From assembly GCF_003967355.1 (NCBI RefSeq), contig NZ_BIFH01000013.1, forward strand, positions 281,084 through 345,083: a DNA stretch of 64,000 bases, in the 5' to 3' direction. Below are positions 52,128 to 53,437 of the stretch, in pieces. Positions within the stretch are counted from its first letter, which is position 1. Every line of letters starts with the position of its first letter. Source of the stretch: Embleya hyalina. GTDB taxonomy: Bacteria > Actinomycetota > Actinomycetes > Streptomycetales > Streptomycetaceae. The notes under the pieces were generated by a model, which was not told the origin of the DNA, made no database searches, and saw nothing but the letters and a program-made list of their open reading frames with translations. The translations under genes were made by a program, and so were the position numbers.

Positions 52128-52139
52128 CCCGGCAGGGCG

Positions 52140-52181
52140 AACGGCCCGCACGGCGTGGGTACGTGCGCCGTGCGGGCCGTT
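52140..52181. terminator. 16-bp bidirectional terminator
   Basis: AACGGCCCGCACGGCG (52140-52155) and its exact complement (52166-52181) enclose a 10-base loop. It lies between the hydrolase gene end and the end of the short-peptide gene at 52197, so it would end both transcripts. Confidence 0.88.
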
Positions 52182-52196
52182 CGGGTGGGGCTCGGG

Positions 52197-52268
52197 TCAC
52201 CAGGGATCCTTCGGATTCCAGATCAGTGGCGGCGTGTTGGTGAGAATGCGCCGGATGACGGCCATCAT
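52197..52268 (-). CDS. 23-residue Trp-terminated peptide, candidate RiPP precursor
   Basis: A 23-codon gene beginning ATG ATG and preceded by GAGGAGG, one of the best ribosome binding sites in the window. It starts 5 bases after the stop of the P450 gene and its transcript ends at a strong terminator. The peptide has a basic N-terminal part (MMAVIRRIL) and ends TNTPPLIWNPKDPW, with two Trp four residues and one residue from the end region. Short aromatic-ending precursors next to a P450 are known for biarylitides and atropopeptides, whose P450 cross-links the core. That role here is inference; no leader-peptidase or exporter gene is adjacent. Confidence 0.6.
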   Translation of the reverse strand: MMAVIRRILTNTPPLIWNPKDPW

Positions 52269-52273
52269 GGTGG

Positions 52274-53437
52274 TCACCTCCTCTTCGAAGCGGGCGATCG
52301 GGTCGCGGACCTGGTGGTGCGGCTCAGGGTGAACGGTCGCGGCGCGGCGGCGTTGGTCACGACCGGCCGCGCCTCGGCGCCGGCGACGCTCAGGCGGGCG
52401 TCGTCGGCCAGCGCCGCCACCGCGTCGGTGGCCATGGTCTGGGCGACGACGGCGCCGCCGCAGACGAACGGGCCCGTGCTGAACGGCAGATACGGGCCGC
52501 ACGCCTGCGGTAGGGCCCAGCGTTCGGGCCGGAAGAGATCGGGTCGACTCCAGCGCCGTTCGTCGTGATGCAGGAGGTAGGGGCTGACCGACAGGATCGC
52601 GCCGGGCGGCAGCGCCACACCACCGAACTCGACCGCACGCGGCGTCGGACGGCCCACCATCCAGACGAACGGACGATGCCGCGCGGCCTCGCGCACGATC
52701 CACTCGGCGGGCCACGGCCACGGCTCGCCCGGCGCGCCGTGCAGACCGGCCAGCAGCACGCTCCAGGCCACGGTGTAGCCGACGTTTCCCACGATCGAGC
52801 GGTACAGCAGCAGGTACAGCTCGGCCACGACAGGATCCCGCGTCTCCTCGGGACAGCCGCCGATGACGGCGTCGAGCAGATCGCGCGGCTCCCCGGCATC
52901 GCCGCCACGTGCCCGGCGTCGCGCGATCTCGCGGGTCAGCGCCGCCATGAGCCTGGGGCGCAGCAGTTCCGTGCGCAGCCGGCCGCGGATCGTCGGTGAC
53001 CGGATCAGCACACCGGCGCCGACGGATCGCGCCAGCAGGAGCCGCAGTTCGGGGGTCGACGTCGGGTGCAGCAGCAGGTCCGCCAGAGATCGACGCACCA
53101 GCGCGGGGCCGGTCTCGGGCCACCGTGCGGCCGCGGGGAGTTGGGCCACCGCCTCGGCCAAGTTGGCGCGATACTCGGGTAATCGCGGTCGGATGGTGTT
53201 GCGTATCGTGTGACCGAGCGCGATCTGGGCCGATCGCGAGGGCAACAGGTCGCCATAGAAGGTGGACAACCCTCCGTTGAATTCCGGATCGCGCAGCACC
53301 ACCAGTGCCAGGTCCGAATCGCCCACGCACCAACCGCCCCAGGGCAGTCGGAAGACATCCGTGGTGCGAGCGCGGGACAGGCCGTCGAGAAACCCCAACG
53401 GATCCCGGTGGAACCGACGCAGATCTCCCCTACCCAT
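52274..53437 (-). CDS. Atypical cytochrome P450 in operon with short peptide
   Basis: 387 residues. P450 marks: ExxR as EAARHRPFVWMVGR (Glu250, Arg253), SPYLLHHDERRW, PERW at 304-307, and the heme loop FSTGPFVCGG with Cys326. The I helix reads VGNVGYTVAW (216-225), so the usual acid-Thr pair for O2 activation is missing, as in P450s that work by radical coupling or on unusual substrates. ATG 53437 follows GGAGGGGGAG. The stop is 5 bases before a 23-codon Trp-rich gene. Cross-linking of that peptide is the leading hypothesis; a terpene-type oxidase is the alternative. Confidence 0.88.
   Translation of the reverse strand: MGRGDLRRFHRDPLGFLDGLSRARTTDVFRLPWGGWCVGDSDLALVVLRDPEFNGGLSTFYGDLLPSRSAQIALGHTIRNTIRPRLPEYRANLAEAVAQLPAAARWPETGPALVRRSLADLLLHPTSTPELRLLLARSVGAGVLIRSPTIRGRLRTELLRPRLMAALTREIARRRARGGDAGEPRDLLDAVIGGCPEETRDPVVAELYLLLYRSIVGNVGYTVAWSVLLAGLHGAPGEPWPWPAEWIVREAARHRPFVWMVGRPTPRAVEFGGVALPPGAILSVSPYLLHHDERRWSRPDLFRPERWALPQACGPYLPFSTGPFVCGGAVVAQTMATDAVAALADDARLSVAGAEARPVVTNAAAPRPFTLSRTTRSATRSPASKRR

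Follow-up and report, generated by a model that had tools for sequence, protein, structure and literature searches.

The closest described relatives of the locus reported here are the axy-type P450 RiPPs. The P450s of Amycolatopsis xylanica (WP_218134608.1), Streptoalloteichus hindustanus (SHF91911.1) and Streptomyces spectabilis (WMW29964.1) bond C2 of a tryptophan to its own backbone nitrogen, and C3 of that tryptophan to N1 of the tryptophan at i+2 (PMC11002830). The hyalucidin A family (NF053510) represents a sister P450 lineage that likewise places a short precursor gene directly 3′ of the P450. A benzofuranoindoline is named for this family in the title of Yin et al. 2026, as cited in PMC13417212; going by that title, hyalucidin carries a modification of indole C2=C3, like the axy-type chemistry. 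Two further groups share the minimal logic of a P450 gene beside a very short gene. Atropopeptides, including tryptorubin, are defined by a KSLK-type leader motif and a tryptophan at core position 2 (PMC11450843), and biarylitides by precursors of five residues (searches covered 5–8), the third and fifth of which are aromatic (PMC13417212). More broadly, Ge and co-workers described 1057 clusters in 11 categories (PMC12299652), which may already contain the branch discussed below.

Layout of the Embleya hyalina cassette

The window, a 64,000-nucleotide stretch of the 12.05-Mb Embleya hyalina genome, carries a P450 gene followed by a putative precursor gene. The relevant features are as follows.

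52274..53437, minus strand: P450 gene, proposed peptide cross-linking enzyme (387 aa; PF00067, E=2.5e-16)
52277..52283, minus strand: Shine-Dalgarno sequence GAGGAGG of the short gene, read directly; layout shared with most homologues
52197..52268, minus strand: candidate precursor peptide gene, MMAVIRRILTNTPPLIWNPKDPW plus stop; conserved at codon level, its pattern missing from control sequence
52230..52232, minus strand: codon of Pro13 in the P-x3-W ruler (ruler in 54/55 family precursors)
52218..52220, minus strand: codon of Trp17, proposed dearomatization and cross-link site (conserved place in 55/55 precursors)
52200..52202, minus strand: codon of Trp23, putative distal aromatic partner at i+6 (W/Y at i+2, i+5, i+6 or i+7 in 54/55 precursors)
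52138..52183, no strand: inverted repeat with an 18-bp stem where the precursor and hydrolase genes converge (folding energy −57.7 kcal/mol, z −8.5)

The P450 stop codon TGA (52276–52274, minus strand) lies immediately 3′ of the Shine-Dalgarno sequence and is separated by CCACC (5 nt) from the ATG ATG start of a 23-codon gene that stops at 52199–52197 (minus strand), in agreement with the coordinates and sequence of the initial annotation. Given that the Shine-Dalgarno sequence adjoins the P450 stop, the short gene is likely translationally coupled to the P450. The initial annotation had also called the enzyme atypical, rightly so: PF00067 covers only residues 245–336, and the I-helix (SIVGNVGY) lacks the acid-alcohol pair, which alignments show to be missing throughout the family. 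Its haem loop reads FSTGPFVCGG. The enzyme scores 60 bits against the model of the aminopyruvatide P450 ApyO (NF050147; cut-off 525), and no relatives were found in the viral contigs searched. The sole full-length PDB sequence match to the family is 9ulw_A (E 3.4e-40, low identity), which carries just the label 'Cytochrome P450' and is possibly a peptide-modifying P450. An AlphaFold model of the window P450 built with 11 sequences reached a pLDDT of 38 and was unusable.

The hairpin between the convergent genes (52183–52138) was previously described as a 16-bp terminator. The hairpin itself holds, but it has a perfect 18-bp stem and a 10-nt loop, and the missing U-run leads us to reject a canonical intrinsic terminator; it is probably the transcription end for both the precursor and the hydrolase genes. 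The neighbors in the window encode the convergent alpha/beta hydrolase, one SnoaL-like and one glyoxalase-like protein, and a WYL regulator, none of which shows any sign of a role in the cassette. An all-against-all comparison of ORFs in the roughly 8-kb flanks of 30 loci likewise found no third conserved gene, such as a peptidase or methyltransferase, at a constant place across groups.

Co-occurrence and conservation of the short gene

P450 homologues were collected from genome contigs and whole genomes by a profile search (profile A1). Matches occur in 19/395 genomes of the window's family, 3/395 of its class, 11/393 of one further genus of its family, 19/297 of the A. xylanica family and 19/150 of the Nocardia jinanensis genus, counts that include the hyalucidin-type outgroup where the cut-off was 1e-60. 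Removal of duplicates and outgroup left 56 family loci, the window counted, with homologues of 50–92% identity in Embleya, Streptomyces, Nocardia and Pseudonocardiaceae. A Trp-bearing short gene lies beside or just after the P450 in 55 of these 56 loci, a count partly built in because precursor candidates were chosen by Shine-Dalgarno strength and the presence of Trp. The spacing of P-x3-W and the second aromatic residue were outside these selection criteria. The 55 loci encode 46 distinct precursors of 16–25 aa, with P-x3-W in 54/55 (L113 has T-x3-W) and a second Trp or Tyr 2–7 residues past the core Trp, again in 54/55. The exception to the latter is the Streptomyces-type L137, whose precursor MAMISTLRRIFRSSPSNSWFRAS (...SPSNSWFRAS) keeps P-x3-W and has no second Trp or Tyr. 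The signature of the family is thus P-x3-W-x(1-6)-[WY].

The initial annotation had proposed to check whether homologues of this P450 are each followed by a short gene ending in W-x-P-x-x-x-W or PW, and named the lack of a conserved, codon-constrained short ORF as what would speak against it. The short gene was borne out; the motif proved too narrow and gives way to the signature above. The one remaining locus, from Nocardia transvalensis (L023, 9090–9280, also recorded as L127), has a long-core-group P450 followed by a Shine-Dalgarno-led ORF, MIKTRTCHRPDGRQFALRPNMPGRQRTTMPITCSHC, that contains no Trp. As a control, the pattern of a Shine-Dalgarno sequence, 14–30 aa and P-x3-W-x1-6-[WY] near the C-terminus was sought around 66 other P450 loci and did not occur in 474 kb on both strands. 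Within the 64-kb window, the precursor gene is the pattern's sole occurrence, and the 1.13 Mb flanking the homologues hold it at the P450-linked site and nowhere else.

Codon-level conservation was also upheld. pN/pS is 0.41 among four Embleya-type precursors, 0.30 among 14 from Nocardia and 0.57 among five of Streptomyces type, figures that are descriptive because the precursor pairs are not independent. Ungapped nucleotide identity within the gene is 0.83, 0.92 and 0.87 in these three groups, and falls to 0.61, 0.45 and 0.35 in the 60 nt 3′ of it. Differences between the window precursor and the two nearest Embleya-type loci are mostly at third codon positions. The precursor codons are under purifying selection.

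Among the close relatives, Embleya sp. NBC_00888 has a P450 77.5% identical to that of the window and encodes MMAIIRRILTNTPPLIWNPKDPW as its precursor; the pair sits on a linear 5.7-Mb record that is labelled as a plasmid and is the only one of the plasmid collection with a close locus. Separately, one Embleya-type P450 frame (L009, 8001–9115; also L026 and L128; 334 aa) is broken just 5′ of the haem Cys beside an intact precursor, MIATIRRIFTNRPAHIWNPRAPW; the assembly is a draft, and the break may be a sequencing error or mark a pseudogene.

P450 phylogeny, core spacing and relation to described families

In an IQ-TREE phylogeny of 63 P450s, the 26 W-x-W members form one clade (support 95/83), and all members with i+5, i+6 or i+7 spacing, hereafter the long-core branch, fall in its sister group (87/86). 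The window P450 groups with the other Embleya-type i+6 loci (100/100), which next join Streptomyces-type i+5 and i+7 loci (97/92). By the AU test, a tree with the Embleya branch inside the W-x-W clade is not rejected (p=0.08). Core type changes seven times on the tree, compared with 31.8 times in shuffles. The i+5 and i+6 spacings each require two changes; spacing has therefore shifted repeatedly within the long-core group, the i+6 core reading, for example, WNPKDPW in the Embleya loci and, in Nocardia L151–L153, WNINHTW. Other cores of the group include WNPAEYG in Nocardia, with Tyr at i+5, and WDPPVWL and WEPDVWL in Streptomyces, with Trp at i+5. The branches also differ in the haem loop, which is FSxG in long-core and FGxG in W-x-W members: residue 320, a column that was within the tree data, is Ser in 17/17 long-core rows tested, and Gly in 26/26 W-x-W and 8/8 hyalucidin rows.

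Within the W-x-W clade, L020 from A. xylanica (core RWNW) and L021 from S. hindustanus (core RRWDW) are very likely the characterized WP_218134608.1 and SHF91911.1 P450s; the identification goes by organism and motif instead of accession and falls short of proof. L021 (also numbered L039) is the only locus with a Shine-Dalgarno-led W-x-W gene among 30 P450 loci from 31 matches in S. hindustanus, and the corresponding check in A. xylanica covered 30 loci of 68 matches. These two P450s are 50–52% identical to the window P450, and their loci share with it the two-gene layout and the leader ruler R-R-[IV]-[FL]-x-x-[KT]-P-x3-W. They differ from it in that the characterized members carry W-x-W (i, i+2) at the C-terminus, whereas the window peptide carries W-N-P-K-D-P-W (i, i+6) and its P450 belongs to the sister clade.

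The hyalucidin-type P450s are more distant (33–38% identical), and their precursors end in WY[LVY]YHHI and lack the P-x3-W ruler. Model NF053510 matches outgroup precursors at 74 and 39.5 bits and finds no match in the window peptide (cut-off 35). The window peptide also lies outside the motifs of atropopeptides and biarylitides, as first proposed. KSLK, RSLK, ESLK, KSRK, KPLK and PSLK are all missing from MMAVIRRILTNTPPLIWNPKDPW, which excludes an atropopeptide by the published definition (PMC11450843), although two genes and Trp cross-links (proposed for the window) are common to both; a length of 23 aa, against 5–8 aa, excludes a biarylitide (PMC13417212). In gene content the locus matches the broad description of cyptides, or P450-cross-linked RiPPs, in that a P450 gene neighbors that of a short precursor whose core aromatics are conserved.

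The original proposal of a candidate new RiPP type therefore survives in part. Its P450-RiPP reading is strengthened by the conserved partner gene; the novelty of the type is not, as the W-x-W relatives are characterized. Judged by sequence, the window cassette is a long-core branch of the characterized W-x-W P450-RiPP kind and no new RiPP type, because its P450 family contains loci of two organisms with characterized W-x-W P450-RiPPs. A literature search with precursor strings returned no match, the primary axy-type papers (reportedly Hu 2023 JACS and Liu 2024 Angew) being beyond its reach. The search likewise found no description of the branch, which may have been listed before in axy-type similarity networks. 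Long-core precursors, that of the window included, match no Pfam or NCBIfam model and are therefore missed by annotation from those libraries.

Proposed cross-linking chemistry and its alternatives

The comparison establishes a P450 co-conserved with a codon-constrained 23-aa peptide that has a fixed Pro13-x3-Trp17 ruler and a second aromatic residue at its C-terminus. These features are best explained by a minimal P450-RiPP cassette of two genes that belongs to the axy (W-x-W) kind, on a long-core sister branch, and by analogy the window P450 probably cross-links Trp17 to Trp23 (probability roughly 0.7). The N-terminal stretch MMAVIRRILTNTPP would act as leader and dock on the P450, which would oxidize Trp17 by one-electron or N-H abstraction and couple it to Trp23 with a net loss of 2 H. 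A P450 whose I-helix lacks the acid-alcohol pair fits coupling without oxygen insertion, and for this reason coupling rather than oxygen insertion is proposed. By homology to the W-x-W relatives, C2 of Trp17 would bond to its own backbone nitrogen, giving a pyrroloindoline, and C3 to N1 of Trp23, closing a ring that spans W-N-P-K-D-P-W. The leader would then be cut off by an unlinked host protease encoded outside the locus. In Nocardia, the partner would be the Tyr at i+5 or the Trp at i+6, and in Streptomyces the Trp at i+5. We know of no product of a long-core member, and bond type and partner are for this reason extrapolated for the window; taken alone, this exact bond set is tentative, its chances somewhat short of even. 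A single axy-type cross-link should shift the mass by −2.016 Da, not −4, because a C-N bond at each end of the indole C2=C3 costs each nitrogen one H. For the full peptide the calculated mass would fall from 2761.492 to 2759.477, and the C-terminal fragment LIWNPKDPW would have [M+H]+ 1166.599; a biaryl link would also cost 2 H and give an equal mass.

A plain biaryl or C-N link that leaves the indoles intact, without a pyrroloindoline (such as a bond from Trp C6/C7 to Trp N1, of the sort seen in cihunamide and certain atropopeptides), is the most serious alternative, if an unlikely one. P450-RiPP enzymes form many link types, the varsorubin P450 produces two bond patterns on one core (PMC11450843), and the partner distance in the window differs from that of the characterized relatives. 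Against this, the nearest characterized relatives and, as far as its title indicates, the hyalucidin outgroup modify indole C2=C3, and the KSLK leader motif is missing. Less probable still is a modification of Trp17 only, by hydroxylation or as a partnerless pyrroloindoline, with the distal aromatic as a recognition or release feature. This would suit the near-invariance of Trp17 and P-x3-W, the variable place and identity of the distal residue, and L137, which has no distal Trp or Tyr; yet that residue is retained in 54/55 precursors across four spacings, and the characterized relatives cross-link.

That the short ORF is no substrate at all is very improbable, whether it is taken for a peptide with a regulatory or attenuator role or for a spurious frame 3′ of a metabolite-modifying P450. 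Its shortness, its Trp residues and the nearby hairpin are what such a reading would draw on. The ORF nevertheless lies 3′ of the P450 and is not itself followed by a conserved gene, its pN/pS values (0.3–0.6) indicate codon-level conservation, the P-x3-W ruler is fixed in Streptomycetaceae, Nocardia and Pseudonocardiaceae, and its W-x-W homologues are characterized RiPPs.

Extending the preferred Trp17–Trp23 cross-link to the whole branch, the long-core P450s may constitute a distinct indole-dearomatizing cyclase branch, in which the Trp placed by P-x3-W bonds with a partner, Trp or Tyr, 5–7 residues away, so that one scaffold yields a ring-size series of i+2, i+5, i+6 and i+7; this is conceivable, with the balance tilting slightly against it. 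If true, four spacings on one P450 scaffold would bear on what sets ring size and the choice of Trp or Tyr as partner in peptide stapling, larger rings than those of axy-type peptides would be possible, and an uncharacterized peptide product would be predicted for genomes of Embleya, Nocardia and Streptomyces.

Hyalucidin A-type P450/precursor pairs (L097–L103, L119–L124) also occur in the families of the window and of A. xylanica, and in A. xylanica itself. One genome of the A. xylanica family (G875) encodes two different P450/precursor pairs, with WNWA and WYWY (L109 and L123).
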